Shown here piece after piece: positions 25,246-34,149 of a stretch of DNA of 64,000 nt; positions within the stretch are counted from its first letter, which is position 1, and each line of letters starts with the position of its first letter. This DNA is from Armatimonadota bacterium. Lineage in GTDB: Bacteria; Armatimonadota; Chthonomonadetes; Chthonomonadales; Chthonomonadaceae. Below the pieces are notes generated by a model that made no database searches, was not told the origin of the DNA, and saw nothing but the letters and a program-made list of their open reading frames with translations. The position numbers were made by a program, and so were the translations under genes. The DNA lies in assembly GCA_028871815.1 (NCBI GenBank), contig JAGWMJ010000013.1, positions 1 through 64,000 of the forward strand, given 5' to 3'.

Positions 25246-25697
25246 GCGAGCTTCCCGCCCTCCAAACCGATCCGGACGCGTTTTCGATATATACATTACC
25301 TGCCGTAGCGCGTTGTTTGCGCCCGGCAGGGCGTCGGCGCTGCGCAAACGGCCCCTTGCCGCACAGGCATCTAACGCCACGCCCGTGTCACTCTGAACAC
25401 ACAGCGAGTCTGCGAGCATCGTGGAAGAGCCTCAATGCTTCTGCCTGCGGCTCCCGCAGCGTCGTCCTCCAGTGTGCCGAGGCCGAGGCGCCCGGGGCAA
25501 TGGGTCTCGCTGGTTCCGGTTCCGGTTCACGATGACAGCCGCCTCCGAACCAGCCACGGCCTCGTCGCCGCGCCAGGCAGCCGGTCAAAAACGCGACGAA
25601 ACCGATGCAGGAATCCGGCGTGGCGCCGGGAAATTGCCTTGCATCGCTCGCGCATCGTGTTCGATGGACTGGGGCAACAGGCACTGAGGTCGCAATC
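25246..25697. other. Intergenic region, no clear gene
   Basis: About 450 bases between divergent genes. The minus-strand TATATATCG near 25286-25296 may be the -10 region for the TPR-purine transcript. Short ORFs here have no recognised similarity and overlap in several frames. It may hold the degraded C terminus of an older RHS cassette, since the next gene is a cassette partner type, but no RHS core is visible. Confidence 0.35.
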
Positions 25698-26720
25698 GTG
25701 GCATGCGAAGCCAAGGGAGCGCCCGGCGGTAGGGGACCGTTCACCCGATCACCTGGCTGGTGCACCGCATTCACTTCGATAGGTGTGATGTTGTGCTGTT
25801 CCGCAGGCTGCCGGGCCCCGCAGGGCCCTCGCGCGGTCGCGACTCTCGTCTTCCCGGATGACCAACCTCTGAACGCCGTGGCGCTCGCGTTTTCGCCCGA
25901 CGGGAGCCGCCTTGCCGCGATGGGCAAGCGGGGTCTGTACGTCTGGAATACAGATTCTTGGGCCGCACCGGATAACTTCTCCGTACCGCGCGCGGCCCGG
26001 ACGATCGGGTACCTGCTCAACTGCGTAACCTTTCGGGGGGACCAACGCGTCTTGACTTTCGGCTCTGCGGGAGCAATAATAGACCTGAATGACGGGGCGG
26101 CCGACGTTGCGCCATCGAGCCCTCCGAGCGGCGTAGAATTGGAATCTCTGTCGCCCGACGGTAGGCTGGCCTTTTGTCGCGTGCAAGCCGGCCACTGCGC
26201 GGTTTACACGGTGCTCGGCTGGCGCCGGCTGGCCGATTTAATGAGCACGTCCGGCCGGACCGCCAGGTGCTTCGGTGTCTTCTCGCCCGATTCCCGGACT
26301 CTGGCTGTCGGTTGCCTTCACGGACCCACCGCTGTATACCGGGTCGCGCCGTGGCGCCGGATCGAGATGAATCGTCGCGCCTCGTTGACTCCGTTATCGG
26401 TGTCGCCTGACAGCCGCCTAATTGCTGGGATCGACCATCAACGCATCGTGGTCTATGACGTTGCCACCGGCAAGCGCGCCGCCGGCTCCGCCCGGCTGCC
26501 CGTGCTATACAACTGGCTCGTCACGCCCGGATTCGCCCGTGGCAGCCGGTATTTGATCGTCCCCGGACGCGATCACGGCATCCAATTCTGGTCAACCCGG
26601 ACTTGGCGCGTGCGGTTCACGGTTGAAACGACCCATCCCATTGAGTATGTCGCGTATTCTCCTGCGACCAACACATTCGCCGCGATCTGTGACGGCGGTG
26701 TCCGCGTGTGGGCTCTCTGA
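25698..26720 (+). CDS. WD40-like beta-propeller lipoprotein (cassette partner)
   Basis: A 340-residue protein. GTG 25698 has GAGGT 8 bases upstream and gives a lipoprotein-like signal ending in a SAGC lipobox (GVMLCCSAGC). Repeats follow with the blade pattern ALAFSPDGSRLAAMGKRGLYVWN, SLSPDGRLAFCR, VFSPDSRTLAVGC, SVSPDSRLIAGID and YSPATNTFAAICDGGVRVW. This is a WD40/YVTN-type propeller, likely anchored outside the cytoplasmic membrane. Immediately downstream an RHS core copy begins. By analogy with the three later cassettes it is the partner of an RHS C terminus that has been lost upstream. Confidence 0.8.
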   Translation: MACEAKGAPGGRGPFTRSPGWCTAFTSIGVMLCCSAGCRAPQGPRAVATLVFPDDQPLNAVALAFSPDGSRLAAMGKRGLYVWNTDSWAAPDNFSVPRAARTIGYLLNCVTFRGDQRVLTFGSAGAIIDLNDGAADVAPSSPPSGVELESLSPDGRLAFCRVQAGHCAVYTVLGWRRLADLMSTSGRTARCFGVFSPDSRTLAVGCLHGPTAVYRVAPWRRIEMNRRASLTPLSVSPDSRLIAGIDHQRIVVYDVATGKRAAGSARLPVLYNWLVTPGFARGSRYLIVPGRDHGIQFWSTRTWRVRFTVETTHPIEYVAYSPATNTFAAICDGGVRVWAL

Positions 26721-26749: not shown

Positions 26750-26929
26750 CTCGCCGGAACTACAACCGATACCTGCAGCTACAAGGCGTTTGGCGTCGAG
26801 CTGCAAGGCGGCTCCGGAACCGTGAACCCGTACCGGTATGAGGGGCTTTTCGGCTACTACCGCGATGCGGCAGACTGGATGTATGTGAGGGCACGGTGGC
26901 TGGATGGGATGAATGGGAGGTGAGCGGGT
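26750..26929 (+). pseudogene. RHS core copy (type 2) with nonsense codon
   Basis: In frame it reads TDTCSYKAFGVELQGGSGTV, NPYRYEGLFGYYRDAADWMY, VRARWLDGMNGR and then TGA (26921-26923), where the copy at 28686-30269 has TGG. It starts 30 bases after the stop of the propeller gene. The same frame continues into the metzincin-type domain at 26930-27529. The core therefore now serves as a relic 5' flank of that domain. Confidence 0.85.
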
Positions 26930-27529
26930 GTGGATCCGATGTGGCAGGATGAGGCAAGGTATGTGTATGTCCGTTGCGGCCCCGCACTGCTCGCCGACGC
27001 TAGCGGCGAGCAGTGCCCGGGCCGCGTCGTGGATTGCCCATCTGATTGTTCCGTGCAAAACGCGCTGAAATCGGCCTGCCACTGCACGCACAAGCTCAGC
27101 CGTTCCGATGTCGCTTACATTAATAGTTGTTTATGGAACGGAGGGCCGCACCATCAATGGCCAGGTCAATGTCCGGCGATCACGCCCGCACAATTAGCAT
27201 GTATGAAAGCGGCATGCGATTGCGTGACCATAGTCTGTTGCGGCGCGTGCAATGTAGACGGGCCTCCGGATCCGGCATGCGCCAATTGCGCCACGGATCC
27301 TAACTTTATCCATTGCGCCTTTACCCTCGGTAATTCCGGCCAATGCGGGCGTATCTACCGGTGCTACCCGGACATAGCGGCGAATCCCACTCGGTGCCGG
27401 AATCTTCCTATCCCGGGAATCGGCGGCGTGATTCTCCACGAGCTCGGCCACCACTGCGGATACAACCACGACGATGGCTGCAATAACCTGCTGGCACAAT
27501 GCTTGGGGCGTGCATGCCGTGGGAGGTGA
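26930..27529 (+). CDS. RHS C-terminal domain, Cys-rich, metzincin-like zinc protease signature
   Basis: A 199-residue ORF beginning (GTG) just after a nonsense codon in the RHS core. Residues 1-14 are still RHS core (DPMWQDEARYVYV). The rest is a Cys-rich domain with many CxC and CC pairs, ending with HELGHHCGYNHD (about 175-186). This fits HExxHxxGxxHD, the extended zinc-binding signature of metzincin proteases. The cysteines suggest an oxidising, extracytoplasmic setting. In RHS systems such tips are toxins. The following gene, whose ribosome site overlaps this stop, is a candidate immunity or processing partner. Activity is inferred from the motif only; without its RHS core the piece is an orphan. 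Confidence 0.72.
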   Translation: MDPMWQDEARYVYVRCGPALLADASGEQCPGRVVDCPSDCSVQNALKSACHCTHKLSRSDVAYINSCLWNGGPHHQWPGQCPAITPAQLACMKAACDCVTIVCCGACNVDGPPDPACANCATDPNFIHCAFTLGNSGQCGRIYRCYPDIAANPTRCRNLPIPGIGGVILHELGHHCGYNHDDGCNNLLAQCLGRACRGR

Positions 27530-27536
27530 TCGTGCG

Positions 27537-28640
27537 GTGTCGACGCTTCGCGTATCCCGGGCTGTGTGTGCGGCGACAGTCGCGCTGTGTCTCGCATGCG
27601 GCCGTGGCCCGACAAGGACTTTCAGAGCGGGCGCCCTCGCACCCGCCCGTCAACTCCGGAGCGTTTTCCGCTTCCGAGCCTCTGACACCGGCCCAGACCT
27701 CACCTGGCTTTCGTCCGATCAATTTATCTACGACACCTACGGGTCCGGACTGATGCTCGTGGATTCGCTCAACGGGCACTCCCGCGTCTTTCTCGGCGAA
27801 CGGGGCCTTGGAGCCCGCGACGTGGAGGCGACTCACTTCGGCGCGTACCCGCTTGAGCTTACCGGTGCGGCGCACGGGGCCAGGACCGCTATTCTCTGCG
27901 TGGTCGCCTCGCCGAACAGTCCAAGAGAGACCGTTCTGGTCATCTCAGCTTCCGGTCGCGTTTTAGGTCGCCGTTCGCGTCAAGGCGGTATGTTCGCCTA
28001 CCCGGCCGGTTCGCGCTGGCTTGGATTCGAGGCTGACCCGCCTACCGACTCGGTCACACACCGCCGTGCCTACATCGCGGACAGTCGTTGTCGTGTAACA
28101 CCTATTCGCAGCAGTTTGTCCGTACGGGGTGAATGGGCGCTGCAGCCCGAACCAAACGCTCCGCCGAAAGGTGTCCGCCTTGCCGAGATTACAGCGGGTT
28201 GGCGCTTCCGGACCGCCACGGTATCGCCGCTGATGCTGGCCGACGGTGTCCTGCTTCGTCGCGGAGCCAGCTGGTCCGCCCATCTGCCGACGGGATACGG
28301 CGGGCTTTTAGACGCCATTAGCCCCGACGGGCGCACGCTTGCAATCCTCGCGCAGCGGAAGTTCCCGAGGGCGGCGGGCAGCACGCCACGGCCCGAGGAG
28401 GGCCCGCCTACTGAGTTGACTCTGTGGCTGGCGCAGGCCGCTTCGCCTGCAGCGGTCATGGTCGGCGGACTCCGCTGTGCTGTGGGTTACGCTGGTTTCC
28501 CGCGGCCGTTCTTTAACCCGGGCAACTTGGAGTGGCTGCCGGATGGCTCTGCCGTGACGTTCACTGCACAGCGACAACTGTGGGAGTACCGGCTCGGCGT
28601 GAACGACGCCCCGCACCGGGCCGATGTCAGCCCGAAATGA
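27537..28640 (+). CDS. Exported beta-propeller-like protein (cassette partner)
   Basis: A 367-residue protein. GTG 27537 is preferred because GGGAGGTGA, which includes the previous stop, lies 7 bases upstream. The N terminus is a signal peptide (VSRAVCAATVALCLACG) with a Cys that could be lipidated, though the lipobox is imperfect. The body has propeller-type segments such as TWLSSDQFIYDTYGSGLMLVD, LDAISPDGRTLAILAQ and LEWLPDGSAVTFTAQRQLWEY, spaced like TolB/WD40 blades. Overlap of its ribosome site with the metzincin ORF stop indicates translational coupling. It may be an immunity protein acting at the envelope. Confidence 0.75.
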   Translation: MSTLRVSRAVCAATVALCLACGRGPTRTFRAGALAPARQLRSVFRFRASDTGPDLTWLSSDQFIYDTYGSGLMLVDSLNGHSRVFLGERGLGARDVEATHFGAYPLELTGAAHGARTAILCVVASPNSPRETVLVISASGRVLGRRSRQGGMFAYPAGSRWLGFEADPPTDSVTHRRAYIADSRCRVTPIRSSLSVRGEWALQPEPNAPPKGVRLAEITAGWRFRTATVSPLMLADGVLLRRGASWSAHLPTGYGGLLDAISPDGRTLAILAQRKFPRAAGSTPRPEEGPPTELTLWLAQAASPAAVMVGGLRCAVGYAGFPRPFFNPGNLEWLPDGSAVTFTAQRQLWEYRLGVNDAPHRADVSPK

Positions 28641-28685
28641 CGCTTAAACCTGGCATCCGGCCGGGGAGAGATCCGCGGTCACGCG

Positions 28686-30269
28686 GTGCCGAGCCGTGTG
28701 GGCAAGCGCACCGCCCGCGTCCCAGCAAACCTGTTTGTCATTGCCGCCCCCTCCCGCCAATCGCGGGGCGGACCCTTACACGCCATGACGATTAACCACA
28801 CCTGGGACACCGACGGCCGCGAGACGGTTCTTAAAAACCTGAACAGTTCCGGCATGGCGCTGGCGGTCTGCAGCCGCACCCACAATCACGTGGGCAACCC
28901 GCTCTCCGTGCTCGAGCTGGATGGCGCTCGTCACGCCGGCGGCGGTCCGCTACGGCAACGCCTCAGCAATCATCCCACAAAGGCAAAGAGCCCTGAAGGC
29001 GGCATACCTGGCGCATCCCGCGCGCTTCGTCAAACGGCCGCCGCAGCATACCGTTCTCCCGGAAGCCGTCTGGATCAATCCACCGGAGCCCAATACGCAG
29101 AAGGTACTCGACATCACTTCATGACCGCAAACCTACAACAATGTGTCTCAAACATGTTGACAAGCCCCGGCAACCGCCTCGTTGAAAACGACTCCGGCGC
29201 GCTTACGTCGGCGTCCTACGACGTCTCGGACCAGCAAATCCTCGTCATATCCCCAACCGGAACCACCACGAACACCTGGGATGCCAACGGCAACCTTTTG
29301 GTCGCCAACGTGGCAGGCGCGTTGACCACCAACACGTGGGACGGCGAAAACCGGCTTGTGGTGCGGCAGAACCCCACCGGACCGCCAACAACAAACCTCT
29401 ACTCCGCGGACGGTTTACGGCAGATTACGCAAACCGGCAGCGGGTACACACGCTTCCTCTGGGACGACCAGAATGTGCTCATCGGGCAGGACGCCGGCGG
29501 TGTGATGCAGGCGCAGTACACCAACAACCCGGGTATCTGGGGCGGTCTCGCTTCGCGGCGGCGCAGCGGCGTGTCCAGCTTCTTCGGCCCGGACCAGCAG
29601 GGCTCCGCGCGCATCCTGGTATCGCAGGCAGGCATGATAACCGATAGCTACAGCTACAAGGCATTCGGAGTAGAACTCGAATCCGGTTCGGGCACGGTGA
29701 ACCCGTACCGGTATGAAGGCCTGTTTGGCTACTACCGCGATGCGGCAGACTGGATGTATGTGCGGGCACGGTGGCTGGATGCTGCGAGCGGGAGGTGGGT
29801 GGGCGTGGATCCAATGTGGCCGGATGAAGCGCGGTATGTGTATGTCGGGAATTCGCCAGGCGCCCACTCGGATCCAAGCGGTGAGTTCGTTCAGCTTTGT
29901 TACCGCCCGGTTTCCGACATTATCCCAGGCAATTGCCGCGGCGGATGTTATTCACACCGGTTTCTGGTAACCTCGTGCAGCACGTTCGGCTGGGGCACAA
30001 AGGGCATCATGTGGGGGCTCCCTGCAAACCTGGGTGGCTACCCACTCGGCGAGATGGTCTGCTGTCCGGTCTCGGTGACGGCTAGGCAGGAGCGATGTAT
30101 GTGTCAGAACGCCAATAGCGCCGATAAGGGTTACAAGATGTGCGGCCGGACATGGGGGGCGGCGGTTACGGGCCGTTTGCCACTAACTGCCAGACCTTCG
30201 TCAGCTGCATTCTATAGGAAGTGCACCGGCCGACAGAATGGCAACACATGTGGTACGCAGATTCAGTAG
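28686..30269 (+). CDS. Truncated RHS protein with Cys-rich NlpC/P60- or LRAT-like C terminus
   Basis: A 527-residue frame. Residues 38-60 (HTWDTDGRETVLKNL) and 165-330 are RHS/YD repeats (GTTTNTWDANGNLLVAN, WDGENRLVVRQNP). The core follows (FFGPDQQGSARIL, YRYEGLFGYYRDAADWMYVR, VGVDPMWPDEARYVYVGN). About 100 residues in between (60-160) look frame-shifted and non-homologous. The variable tip from residue ~390 is Cys-rich with GCYSHRFLV. In another frame after a G6 run (30154-30159) it reads ATNCQTFVSCIL and stops at 30217, the Cys motif of NlpC/P60 or LRAT-like peptidases. One extra G would restore it. The start codon is uncertain and the 5' end is probably lost. Confidence 0.75.
   Translation: MPSRVGKRTARVPANLFVIAAPSRQSRGGPLHAMTINHTWDTDGRETVLKNLNSSGMALAVCSRTHNHVGNPLSVLELDGARHAGGGPLRQRLSNHPTKAKSPEGGIPGASRALRQTAAAAYRSPGSRLDQSTGAQYAEGTRHHFMTANLQQCVSNMLTSPGNRLVENDSGALTSASYDVSDQQILVISPTGTTTNTWDANGNLLVANVAGALTTNTWDGENRLVVRQNPTGPPTTNLYSADGLRQITQTGSGYTRFLWDDQNVLIGQDAGGVMQAQYTNNPGIWGGLASRRRSGVSSFFGPDQQGSARILVSQAGMITDSYSYKAFGVELESGSGTVNPYRYEGLFGYYRDAADWMYVRARWLDAASGRWVGVDPMWPDEARYVYVGNSPGAHSDPSGEFVQLCYRPVSDIIPGNCRGGCYSHRFLVTSCSTFGWGTKGIMWGLPANLGGYPLGEMVCCPVSVTARQERCMCQNANSADKGYKMCGRTWGAAVTGRLPLTARPSSAAFYRKCTGRQNGNTCGTQIQ
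30154..30159 (+). repeat. G6 homopolymer at a frameshift in the RHS tip
   Basis: Six G bases inside the variable domain. Adding one G joins the upstream frame (KGYKMCGRTW) to GGYGPFATNCQTFV and a stop at 30215-30217, three bases before a GTG of the next ORF. It could be a phase-variable tract, a decay mutation or a sequencing error. Confidence 0.6.
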
Positions 30270-31384
30270 CATCGGCGGTGGTTAAGGCTGCCCTGCGGCG
30301 CGGTTGGTTGGCCGTGCTCATGGGCCTGAGCGTCTGGGCGAGCCGATGCGCGTCTTCTCAGTACCAGCACACTCGCCGCGCGGCGCGAGCGACGGCGCCT
30401 GGTGCCCCTTCCCAAATGCGATTCGCGCTAACAGCGCGGGTGCCCGCCCCGCTTAGCGAACTGTGGGCCTTTGGCCGTCATGGCCGGCTGGCCTTGGTGG
30501 AGGCCTACAAGAAGGGCGGCGGCCGCGTGCCGCACACGTACACGGTGCGGATCCTGCAACCCGCAGACGCGCGCACGTTGAGGATCGTAGCGGCCGGGCC
30601 CGTGACGGGAGTGCTTTATAAGCTCTTCTGGTCGGACGACGGCCGCCGTTTCCTCCTATCGACGGACCACCAGACGTTCGAATGCGATGCGACGAGCGGG
30701 AGGGTTGTGGCGCGCCATCCGTGGACTATGATCGCGGAGGATCCCCGTGCACGGGTTTGCATAACCGGGGTAGCCGCGACTTACAACAGCACGGTCACAC
30801 TCCGCCGCCTTGCGCCGCCGTGGACTGCTATAGCGACGGTCCGCGTCCCCCGCCATTGCGAGGCGCAGGTCGGGATGCCGCTGGAGTGCGCGTTTGCGCC
30901 CCGGGGCGAGCGGTTGGCGGTTGCTGGAGCCGGCGCCTGCGAGCTTATCCTGCTTGTGAACTGGCGCGTCGCACAGCGCCGGTTGCTGGGTGCTCGCGAT
31001 ACCGAGGTGGTCGACACGCCGTGCGAATTCGCCCCTTCGGGTCGCGTCCTCGTGATATACGACCTGACTGGCGCCAAATTCTGTGCGTACGATTGTGCTA
31101 CTGGCAAGTTGCTGGTACGCGTGCCGTCGCGCCGCAACTCGGTGGTGTCCGGATGCTTCACGCGCGACGGGCGCTTCTTCATTGGCATGTCGGACAACGA
31201 CAACTCTATTACTGCTTGGCGGGTCGCCACGTGGCGCGTCTGCGCGGTGATGCGCCTTAAGCAGGTTATGCCTACATTGGTCGGCGCCTACGGCGTGGGG
31301 ACTGGACTCGTGATTGGCACATTCGCGCGGGACACGCTTCTTGCCGAACTCCAAAGCAGCTCTCCCGCGGCTCCGGCACGGTGA
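30248..31384 (+). CDS. Exported WD40-like beta-propeller protein (cassette partner)
   Basis: About 378 residues. Possible starts are GTG 30221, ATG 30248 and GTG 30278; the last gives the neatest signal peptide (KAALRRGWLAVLMGLSVWASRCAS). The body has repeated propeller blades: LWAFGRHGRLALVEAY, FWSDDGRRFLLSTDHQTFECD, CAFAPRGERLAVAGAG, EFAPSGRVLVIYDLTGAKFCAYD and CFTRDGRFFIGMSDNDNSITAW. The 3' end coincides with the next RHS core: its stop TGA is read from the GTGAACCC of the core. It is predicted to be extracytoplasmic and paired with the NlpC-like tip upstream. Confidence 0.76.
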   Translation: MWYADSVASAVVKAALRRGWLAVLMGLSVWASRCASSQYQHTRRAARATAPGAPSQMRFALTARVPAPLSELWAFGRHGRLALVEAYKKGGGRVPHTYTVRILQPADARTLRIVAAGPVTGVLYKLFWSDDGRRFLLSTDHQTFECDATSGRVVARHPWTMIAEDPRARVCITGVAATYNSTVTLRRLAPPWTAIATVRVPRHCEAQVGMPLECAFAPRGERLAVAGAGACELILLVNWRVAQRRLLGARDTEVVDTPCEFAPSGRVLVIYDLTGAKFCAYDCATGKLLVRVPSRRNSVVSGCFTRDGRFFIGMSDNDNSITAWRVATWRVCAVMRLKQVMPTLVGAYGVGTGLVIGTFARDTLLAELQSSSPAAPAR

Positions 31385-32040
31385 ACCCCTACGGCTATGA
31401 AGGCCTGTTCGGGTATTACCGCGATGCGGCAGACTGGATGTACGTGAGGGCACGGTGGCTGGATGCGGTGAGCGGGATGTGGGTGGGGGTGGGTCCGATG
31501 TGGCCGGATGAGGCAAGGTACGTCTATGTGGGGAACGGACCGGCACGTGCGACGGATCCGAGTGGGCGGCAGGCGGACCCATTCATTCCGGTCATGCCGT
31601 TGCAAACCTGTTATCCGCCCAAGCCGAACTGCAACAAGTACCACTGGCGACCGGGGCCATATCCGCACTACCCGCGCGACAAAGTGCATTGCAGCGCGTA
31701 TTTACCACCGTGCGAACGCCGGACATACTACGCGTGCAACGCATACCGGGCTTGTATGAGCGCCGGCTGGCCGAATGACCGTCCCGGTTCTGAGTGCGTT
31801 CGCGGCTGTCTACGGGTGTGCCTGCCGCCAAAGAACATACCGAACGCCGATTGCAGCCAGGTGTGGTGCGTCCACCAACACTGTTTTGCTGCCTGCCACT
31901 GGTACCCGGATTGGTCGGTCACATGGCCCATATTCGACGAGATTTGCTGCGGGCCCGTAGTTAACGATCCGCCTGCCGGCAAGGGGTACCCGACCGGCTC
32001 GTGTCCGCACCCGTGTTGCCAGCGGCCCAAGGAAGCCTGA
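31381..32040 (+). CDS. RHS core copy with Cys-rich C-terminal domain, unknown
   Basis: A 219-residue ORF. Residues 1-60 are RHS core (NPYGYEGLFGYYRDAADWMY, VRARWLDAVSGMWVGVGPMW, PDEARYVYVGN). The homology begins about 15 bases before the GTG, inside the end of the previous gene. From residue 65 the sequence is a unique domain with about 20 cysteines, for example CERRTYYACNAYRACMSAGW and CSQVWCVHQHCFAACHW, plus Pro/Tyr-rich stretches. No catalytic motif was recognised. Cys richness suggests a disulfide-bonded secreted domain. The stop overlaps the ATG of the PQQ-propeller gene (TGATG). Confidence 0.72.
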   Translation: MNPYGYEGLFGYYRDAADWMYVRARWLDAVSGMWVGVGPMWPDEARYVYVGNGPARATDPSGRQADPFIPVMPLQTCYPPKPNCNKYHWRPGPYPHYPRDKVHCSAYLPPCERRTYYACNAYRACMSAGWPNDRPGSECVRGCLRVCLPPKNIPNADCSQVWCVHQHCFAACHWYPDWSVTWPIFDEICCGPVVNDPPAGKGYPTGSCPHPCCQRPKEA

Positions 32041-33245
32041 TGCTGATCGTACGCCGCCGAGCTGGGCTGACGAGGATGCTTGGCTTGTTGGCGCTGGCGC
32101 CGCCGGCTGCTGTCTACCTTATGATACCGTCCAGCAGGATCAATAGCCACAACAGCCATACTAATCAGCGTAGGAGTGACGCCGCCTGGCCTATGTTTCG
32201 CGGCAATGCACAACGCAGCGGCTTATCGAATTGCCCACGCCTCGCCGGGAAAGTAGCGTGGCGGGCAAAGCTAGACGCGCCGGTAACCGGTTCGCCCGCG
32301 GTTACGACGTCCGGCATAGTGCTCTGCACCACCTCAGAAGGCGGCTTGGTTGCCATATCGGCGCGCGATGGGACGCGGCTCTGGGTGCGGCACATCGGCG
32401 GCGATGGCTACTCATCGCCAGCCGCGGTGGGCGGCCGCGTCTACGTGGGTGGCGGCGCGCAGCTTTGGTGCCTGTCCGCGGCGTCTGGCCGCGTGCGCTG
32501 GAGGTTTCGGTCCAATGGCTCGATAGAGACCTCGCCGGCGCTCGTTCCCGGCAAGGTGGTGTTCTTTGGTTCGGACGGCGGGTATGTGTATGCGGTCGGC
32601 GCGATTACCGGGCGCATGATCTGGAAACGGCGTCTCCGTGGCCGGCTGTCGAGCTCCCCGGCACTGGACACCGACGGCCAGGTGTTCATCGGCCGCGCAG
32701 ATGGCAGCCTGGTCATCCTTACTGCCGACGATGGCGCTATAGTCGCCTCTTTGCCGCTGATGCCCACTTTCTGGGCGTCCGAGGGCATCTTTTCGACGCC
32801 CGCCGTGTGCGGGAGGAACGTTGTGGTCGGAACGTTCGGCGGCGATGTCATCGCGGTTTCTCGAATCCGGCACGCCGTCGCTTGGCGCACTCACCTTGAT
32901 GCACGCCTCGATCGCTCACCGATTGCGGCCTCATGCGCCGTAGACGGCCATGGGCACGTACTGGTCGGGTCCGCCGACCACCGGATATATAGTCTCAATT
33001 CGAACACAGGGGCCGTGATATGGCGCTTCGACGCGGGCAGCGCAATCGCATCCTCGGCGGCCGTGAGCCGGCGTGGTTACCTGGCCGTTGGGACCGACGG
33101 CGGCAATGTATTGTGCCTGGCCACCGAGAACGGCGGATCGCTCTGGTCCCTGCGCACTGGGGGCAGGGTATACTCGTCACCGGCGCTATCCGGCGGCGAG
33201 GCGTTTGTTGGCTCCGAGGACGGGTACCTTTATTGCTTGAAGTAA
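32040..33245 (+). CDS. Membrane-anchored PQQ-like beta-propeller protein (cassette partner)
   Basis: A 401-residue protein. ATG 32040 shares its A with the preceding TGA stop (TGATG) and has AAGGA 7 bases upstream. The N terminus is a signal anchor (RRAGLTRMLGLLALAPPAAVYLM). Blades of the PQQ_2/outer-membrane BamB-like type follow: WPMFRGNAQRSGL, SGRVRWRFRSNGSIETSPAL, VYAVGAITGRMIWKRRL, SSPALDTDGQVFIGRADGSL, IYSLNSNTGAVIWRFDAGS and GGEAFVGSEDGYLYCLK. It has seven to eight repeats and is predicted extracytoplasmic. It differs in family from the WD40-like partners although it sits in the same cassette slot. Confidence 0.85.
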   Translation: MLIVRRRAGLTRMLGLLALAPPAAVYLMIPSSRINSHNSHTNQRRSDAAWPMFRGNAQRSGLSNCPRLAGKVAWRAKLDAPVTGSPAVTTSGIVLCTTSEGGLVAISARDGTRLWVRHIGGDGYSSPAAVGGRVYVGGGAQLWCLSAASGRVRWRFRSNGSIETSPALVPGKVVFFGSDGGYVYAVGAITGRMIWKRRLRGRLSSSPALDTDGQVFIGRADGSLVILTADDGAIVASLPLMPTFWASEGIFSTPAVCGRNVVVGTFGGDVIAVSRIRHAVAWRTHLDARLDRSPIAASCAVDGHGHVLVGSADHRIYSLNSNTGAVIWRFDAGSAIASSAAVSRRGYLAVGTDGGNVLCLATENGGSLWSLRTGGRVYSSPALSGGEAFVGSEDGYLYCLK

Positions 33246-33367
33246 CAGTCCACGGCTCGCTGCCGCACCTCCTCTGCCGGTCCGGCGTCCGCCGAACGTG
33301 GCGAGCGGCTATATCGCGTGGCTGTCTCACCGTACAAACGGTCCTCTTCGGCGGCTGCGCAGCACTC

Positions 33368-33475
33368 CGGCGCAGCGGCGTCTCCTGCTTCTTCGGCCCG
33401 GACCAGCAGGGCTCTGCGCGCATCCTGGCCTCCAGCGCCGGGTCGGTAACCGATATTTACAGCTACAAGGCGTTG
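33368..33475 (+). pseudogene. RHS core fragment, frame-shifted from downstream core
   Basis: Reads RRSGVSCFFGPDQQGSARIL and ASSAGSVTDIYSYKAL in the frame ending at 33502. Compared with the copy at 29555-29680, seven bases are missing around 33470-33476, so this part is out of frame with the RYEGLFGYYRD part that follows. It shows decay of the core while the tip stays open. Confidence 0.75.
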
Positions 33476-33498
33476 AGCTGCAAGGCGGAGGCGGAACC

Positions 33499-34149
33499 GT
33501 GAACCCTTACCGGTATGAAGGCCTGTTCGGCTACTACCGCGATGCCACGGACTGGATGTACGTGCGGGCAAGGTGGCTGGATGCGATGAATGGGAGGTGG
33601 GTGGAGCGCGGAAGGCCCGCTGGAAACTGGATTGACGCCGTCGGTAACTACGGCGCGGCCGTCGCTGGCAGGATGGCCGAACCGAGCAGTGCTCGCAGAT
33701 CGACGGCCTGCCATGGCGTGTTGGGTTGTGATGCGACAGGCCCCACCTGCAAGAAGCGGCGAATGGCGAATCCGACAGCGTGTGAGCGCGCCGCGTGCGC
33801 ATGCTGGAATAGGTTCAACAACGAACTCGCCAATAGTGCATCTGAGGCGTGCGGCGGTACCTCGGCCGGCTTAGGCGCTATCCGGCAGTGCCATACGACG
33901 CAATCGTGTCTTGGAAACAGCGGACACGACTGCATGATAAATCCGCCGCCGTCGAGCGCGTGCCACCGAGGCGATACCGGCGGCCTGGCTCCGCGCCGGT
34001 GCCGGGTCCGCCGTGAACAGTGTGTCTGTATGTATTACGAGCAACCGGGTAAGGCGCGTACCGCCAGGTGGCTTGCGCACACAATGTACAACGGCGCACA
34101 CAATGTGCCCGCCCCGCCGGGCCCGGGAGCTGGCCACCCATGTCCTTAG
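33499..34149 (+). CDS. RHS core copy with Cys-rich C-terminal domain, unknown
   Basis: A 216-residue ORF from GTG 33499, with GGAGG at 33487-33491, 7 bases upstream; the raw frame is open to 33298. It starts with core (NPYRYEGLFGYYRDATDWMY, VRARWLDAMNGRWV). Then it leaves the shared sequence earlier than the other copies, at ERGRPAGNWIDAVGNYG. The tip holds about 16 cysteines (TACHGVLGCDATGPTCKK, CERAACACWNRFNNELA, CLGNSGHDCM, EQCVCMYYEQPG). No motif for a known toxin was recognised. It ends inside the start of the next gene, so the pair is translationally overlapped. Confidence 0.7.
   Translation: MNPYRYEGLFGYYRDATDWMYVRARWLDAMNGRWVERGRPAGNWIDAVGNYGAAVAGRMAEPSSARRSTACHGVLGCDATGPTCKKRRMANPTACERAACACWNRFNNELANSASEACGGTSAGLGAIRQCHTTQSCLGNSGHDCMINPPPSSACHRGDTGGLAPRRCRVRREQCVCMYYEQPGKARTARWLAHTMYNGAHNVPAPPGPGAGHPCP

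Follow-up and report, generated by a model that had tools for sequence, protein, structure and literature searches.

The region at 26753-28640 of the window, which is the whole stretch of 64,000 nucleotides analysed here and sits in contig C13 of a 3.68-Mb Armatimonadota genome, is best explained as a displaced (orphan) RHS toxin/immunity cassette with a zinc-protease tip, kept as a donor and immunity store, a reading to which we assign a probability of about 0.6. All the features described in the window lie on the forward strand. At the centre of the cassette is an ORF at 26930-27529, a 199-aa frame opening with GTG that consists of the end of an RHS core followed by a 177-aa cysteine-rich, metallopeptidase-like tip. 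A preliminary description of this DNA had reported an ORF with a HExxHxxGxxHD signature near its end and, indeed, the zinc-site motif HExxHxxGxxH(D) is found at the C-terminal end of the frame as HELGHHCGYNHD (27437-27472). This is the sole occurrence of HExxHxxGxxH in the six frames of the window, for which about 0.010 occurrences are expected from composition and 0.015 from a second-order Markov model. Since so few (around 0.01 per window) are expected, and since homologues carry HExxHxCGxxH at the C-ends of stop-free RHS frames, the motif is real and not due to chance. The domain is cysteine-rich, as had been claimed, although the figure of about 30 cysteines was too high: there are 24 in the 199-aa frame and 23 in the 177-aa tip proper.

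The tip is preceded by an RHS core fragment (26753-27016, with a start at about 26753) that shares 75% amino acid identity with the core at 28686-30269 and continues into the tip in the same frame, through an in-frame TGA at 26921-26923. Within the fragment, the TIGR03696 model matches at 26780-27007 with an E value of 3.1e-6 and 29.5 bits, under its cut-off of 32.5 bits. The motif PxxxxDPxG, known as the boundary that precedes the tip (PMC3150448), is present as the near-match PALLADASG at 26981-27007, one residue off, and most intact relatives have a canonical DPSG or DPTG boundary. The tip was rightly called an orphan behind a core with a TGA, and three more such tips lie in the same array. 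A recoding of the stop codon was considered and judged unlikely, since the sister cores have other codons at that position and the neighbouring genes have open frames under table 11. Initiation inside the core at GTG 26930 is possible: a perfect Shine-Dalgarno match, GGAGGTGA, lies at 26916-26923, overlapping the TGA and 6 nt ahead of the GTG. The match may nonetheless have arisen by chance, without selection, since it falls within core coding sequence and the sister cores carry GGGAGGTGG at the same place.

The assignment of the tip to the RHS proteins, which the preliminary description had made, is borne out by homologous tips that end uninterrupted RHS frames. A search of 100 related genomes returned one homologue, which ends a 761-aa stop-free RHS frame, has the motif HEIGHLCGVQHHD at the frame end and also carries HEIGHLCGVQHHDENNRFGCND. 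A second intact relative, with HEVLHCCGLGHG, ends a 1427-aa RHS frame that opens with no obvious N-terminal signal, and among other Armatimonadota further homologous tips are found at the ends of shorter frames with an RHS core. When 291 genomes of the phylum were searched with profiles, matches came from 12 genomes with a 5-row alignment and from 25 with a 10-row alignment, counts that include distant and partial matches and of which only some were inspected; the matches that could be read lay on the C-terminal side of an RHS core. The ten-row alignment shows no variation in the catalytic Glu, the second His, the Cys after HExxH and additional cysteines, the first and the third His are each kept in 9 of the 10 rows, and beyond HExxH conservation is seen at C, G, H, C, N and C. 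No motif residue is missing from the window tip, which also has the cysteines that are conserved among relatives. The motif is of the metzincin type, as first described, and shared within the family. Inactive members exist as well, since two readable relatives are without some motif residues (NELMHCCGFDQ in L085/L091 and HEMISVCG in L050/L082). A degenerate pattern compared with a collection of 84,980 species found four loci, all titled Armatimonadota or Chthonomonas, a result that is no proof of restriction to the phylum because the pattern is narrow. Searches of plasmids and of viral contigs found no relatives in either, and a search of a viral structure library gave no meaningful match to the tip. 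A second subtype of tip (L042:2170, L054, and L078 near 5200) reads HELIHCGG, HELIHTGH or HELAHCST, has a later ACCxCEA-like stretch and mostly adjoins propeller-like genes. In two genomes, RHS genes are closely preceded by a gene for a NifU-like scaffold protein, recognised by eye (L077:5427-5870 and L081:2811-3185).

The predicted structures point to a zincin fold. AlphaFold modelled the window tip with a mean pLDDT of 68.8 and a pTM of 0.68, and the tip of one relative with a pLDDT of 77.3 and a pTM of 0.80; both models have three N-terminal helices, a small sheet, an active-site helix that bears HExxH and then another helix, and the two HExxH histidines lie one turn apart in the predicted helix. 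The model of the tip can be overlaid on the catalytic domains of zincins over 122-130 residues. When the two models were compared with the PDB by Foldseek, the best-ranked rows were zincins, with best E values of 0.14-0.29 and none below 0.1. In VIA-align, the nearest solved folds were compact secreted zincins of the M35 aspzincins, namely AsaP1 (Z 8.1-8.4), deuterolysin (7.4-7.5) and the Grifola peptidyl-Lys peptidase (6.7-7.4); the alignments span 122-137 residues at an rmsd of 3.3-4.6 and 9-18% identity, and the Z values are middling, a Z near 8 possibly reflecting, by the aligner's own caveat, merely a common arrangement. Metzincins scored lower in the fold comparison (karilysin Z 4.2, astacin and MMP about 4.3-4.5). 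The sequence profiles of the tip, compared with PDB sequences, found metzincins instead, 14 of 14 matches with the first profile and 18 of 19 with the second, the remaining one being YbeY; all are weak and rest mainly on the motif region. The fold and profile results would agree if the tip had a zincin fold and a ligand triad of the metzincin type but lacked a Met-turn, a combination that we take to liken it to YbeY, also because YbeY is present in both lists.

Metzincins require a Met-turn. The window copy has no Met after the motif and a helix is predicted there (residues 162-174), so that no Met-turn is evident, and the ten-row alignment has no conserved Met column. The tip was therefore not filed with the metzincins, to which the preliminary description had assigned it, even though its motif is of their type; the structure prediction likewise gave the best solved matches in M35 (Z 6.7-8.4 as against about 4). 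Membership of M35 was rejected in turn. That family is defined by HEXXH and GTXDXXYG, in which the Asp is the third ligand (PMC12924839), whereas the tip has a His at the metzincin position and its sequence contains no GTxD. As for curated families, no model in Pfam or NCBIfam exceeded its cut-off for the tip, PHROGs and PADLOC gave nothing useful, PF14521, scanned with regard to M35, matched neither in the phylum nor in the controls and so offered no local M35 enzyme to compare with, and none of the Tox-MPTase families that have a model in Pfam-A was found at E<=1 for the ten members. With the M35 Asp motif absent, no Met-turn evident and no curated model, we read the tip as a probable new cysteine-rich zincin toxin family, neither metzincin nor M35, and file it within the metallopeptidase tips of polymorphic toxins.

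The gene that follows the tip is its presumed immunity partner (27537-28640), predicted to be PD40/beta-propeller-like with a hydrophobic N-terminus. Its ORF opens at ATG 27474 and its best start is GTG 27537, 7 nt past the tip stop, with a Shine-Dalgarno sequence GGAGGTGA at 27522-27529 that overlaps the tip stop codon. In the relatives, the product of the gene after the tip is in some cases small and beta-rich, in others a propeller or an ankyrin-repeat protein. The immunity role of the window partner can be proposed only from its position, since it is a beta-propeller whereas the partners of close relatives are mostly small beta-rich or ankyrin proteins. A strongly hydrophobic N-terminus was found in 17 of 20 partner genes and in 5 of 27 window genes, a contrast that is indicative only because the partner starts were chosen by hand, partly for hydrophobicity. 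Export- or anchor-like N-termini in the partners are nevertheless the pattern predicted by a toxin that acts outside the cytoplasm, and such segments at the opening of the adjacent presumed immunity genes fit the earlier proposal of extracellular action. Comparison of the small beta-rich partners with each other by BLASTP and phmmer gave nothing convincing, leaving their homology unsupported, and the propellers that accompany different tips show no relation beyond the propeller type. A profile of six small beta-rich partners found AsaP1 alone in the PDB at E<=10 (E 0.85), over residues 38-125, a part of AsaP1 distinct from the catalytic half to which the tip corresponds. Upon addition of a seventh member, other beta-sandwich proteins outranked AsaP1, and single partners used as queries did not find it; immunity by a prodomain acting in trans was thus set aside as a lead only. 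Doubtful, too, is the most far-reaching claim considered, that of a family of protease toxins for an oxidising compartment, found at the level of the phylum, with an H-H-H metzincin-type zinc site on an M35-like scaffold and an immunity protein that is a prodomain in trans.

The cassette is the first of an array of four displaced tip/partner cassettes (26753-34149), and its core shares 84-86% DNA identity with the cores of the other three. All four tips are cysteine-rich and HExxH occurs in the first only. The second cassette has a core remnant of 527 aa (28686-30269), with 11 Cys in its tip, and a beta-propeller partner with a hydrophobic N-terminal segment (30221-31384); the third has a core fragment and tip with 18 Cys (31357-32040) and a partner that by eye is a PQQ-type beta-propeller, again with a hydrophobic N-terminal segment (32040-33245); the fourth has a core fragment and cysteine-rich tip (33298-34149). 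Each of the three further tips in 28686-34149 has its own downstream gene, two of them propellers, and the last encodes a protein with an H-X9-DG pilin-like C-terminus. Upstream of the tip cassette, a member of the array at 25605-26720 encodes a WD40-like beta-propeller (WD40 PF00400, 28.9 bits against a cut-off of 27) with a hydrophobic segment near residues 58-70, and no tip of its own was seen. Across the genome there are 44 RHS core C-ends, nearly all of them in short frames, but only a single long RHS gene (contig C5, 4453-7635 of locus L076, 1061 aa), which starts with the Tat-like (twin-arginine-like) signal RRDFLKAAAITVGATAAGAAGLA and ends in a different cysteine-rich tip. This ratio suggests an unusually large store of displaced tips, with the proviso that assembly gaps may account for some missing long RHS genes, since several arrays lie at contig ends. 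Two further tips of the same genome were noted by eye: one at C12:112762 (L066) has GHSDGCIVL, which resembles the SxGC site of L,D-transpeptidase-like domains, and one at C14:51998 (L074) has HHLLPQ, which resembles known nuclease toxin tips and is followed by a cysteine-pair protein.

For the tip cassette, we infer zinc binding, proteolysis, a target, export, immunity and a donor role along the following lines. The tip, a cysteine-rich domain, would be a zinc metallopeptidase with a compact zincin fold and HExxHxCGxxH as its ligands. In the relatives, it forms the C-terminal end of an RHS toxin, inside whose shell it would be exported. Once outside the cytoplasm it would be oxidised, and would then cut envelope proteins of a competing cell, while the next gene downstream, for which an exported beta-propeller is predicted here, would supply the immunity protein and block the tip outside the cytoplasm. 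In the source genome, the tip is without its carrier and sits within the four-cassette array; most likely, the cassette acts as a donor, from which recombination through the shared core could bring the tip onto an RHS carrier, and as a source of immunity.

Since its core is interrupted, the window copy may instead be a decaying relic, namely what RHS rearrangement left behind as a pseudogene fragment, which would now serve neither as donor nor as protein, with at most the partner in use. The TGA speaks for this, as do the degenerate DASG boundary and the genome itself, which has several broken cores elsewhere and no full-length carrier with the same type of core. The 177-aa tip frame is nonetheless intact with every motif residue and conserved cysteine, and it ends directly ahead of a partner gene with its own Shine-Dalgarno sequence, which makes decay rather unlikely, if the most serious of the alternatives. 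Translation of the tip alone from GTG 26930, to act in the cytoplasm or upon release by lysis, would profit from the well-spaced Shine-Dalgarno match. That match needs no selection, given its place in the core and the sister copies, and the product would have no signal peptide, so that it would stay in the cytoplasm without export or disulfides, where a domain with 23 Cys is unlikely to fold. Orphan C-terminal toxin fragments are, moreover, usually not synthesised (PMC3150448), and a standalone protein is thus the least probable of these explanations.

Hardly more credible is a tip that binds zinc or is structural but does not cleave proteins, for instance a binding domain, or one resembling a zincophore, built on a zincin fold. 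The relatives that are without motif residues would suit it, and Pra1, a zinc-scavenging protein with a zincin fold (PMC12663325), is among the fold matches. The aligned members, on the other hand, keep the catalytic Glu in 10 of 10 cases and both HExxH histidines in 9 of 10, and the toxin/partner layout predicts an enzyme. The displaced cassette with a protease tip therefore remains the preferred reading.

Several known systems resemble such a cassette in part. The premise that RHS tips are not usually proteases, from which the preliminary description had argued, was too strong, as RHS-linked metallopeptidase toxin families, Tox-MPTase1-5 and others, are described in the accessible portion of Zhang et al. 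2012 (PMC3482391). These share with the window tip a HExxH zincin domain in RHS-linked polymorphic toxins; the tip family differs in being cysteine-rich and in having its third His in CGxxH, and the same portion of the text mentions neither cysteine-rich or disulfide tips nor Armatimonadota. The VgrG2b C-terminal domain and PA0261 (Tpe-Tpi) of Pseudomonas aeruginosa provide a tested precedent, in which a HExxH metallopeptidase effector is active in the periplasm and the immunity proteins are periplasmic, lipoproteins or membrane-anchored (PMC6899460). The window tip and its partner are likened to this pair by description, the activity and export of the tip being presumed, and VgrG2b is carried on a T6SS spike whereas the tip lies in an RHS orphan cassette. 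With adamalysins, astacins and MMPs the tip shares HExxHxxGxxH(D), and differs from these metzincins by its weaker fold match and by having no evident Met-turn. CDI and Rhs orphan modules encode working toxin/immunity pairs, as a rule without translation signals of their own, and the orphan CdiA-CT/CdiI modules and Rhs silent cassettes are likewise arrays of detached toxin C-termini, each with a downstream gene of its own (PMC3150448). What differs here is the phylum, the 44 core ends in one genome and the fact that most partners look exported.

Collectively, protease tips of RHS toxins are already known, and what appears to be new is the cysteine-rich family, for which scans of Pfam, NCBIfam, PHROGs and PADLOC found no curated model. 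If active, the family would add a class of toxin made for sites outside the cytoplasm of the target, where disulfides can form, and its exported antidotes would represent several unrelated folds. Armatimonadota, a phylum in which the literature searched contains almost no work on such toxins, would then also gain a testable competition system. The genome described here, with its many RHS core ends beside one long RHS gene, is a good one in which to investigate the upkeep and use of silent tip cassettes.
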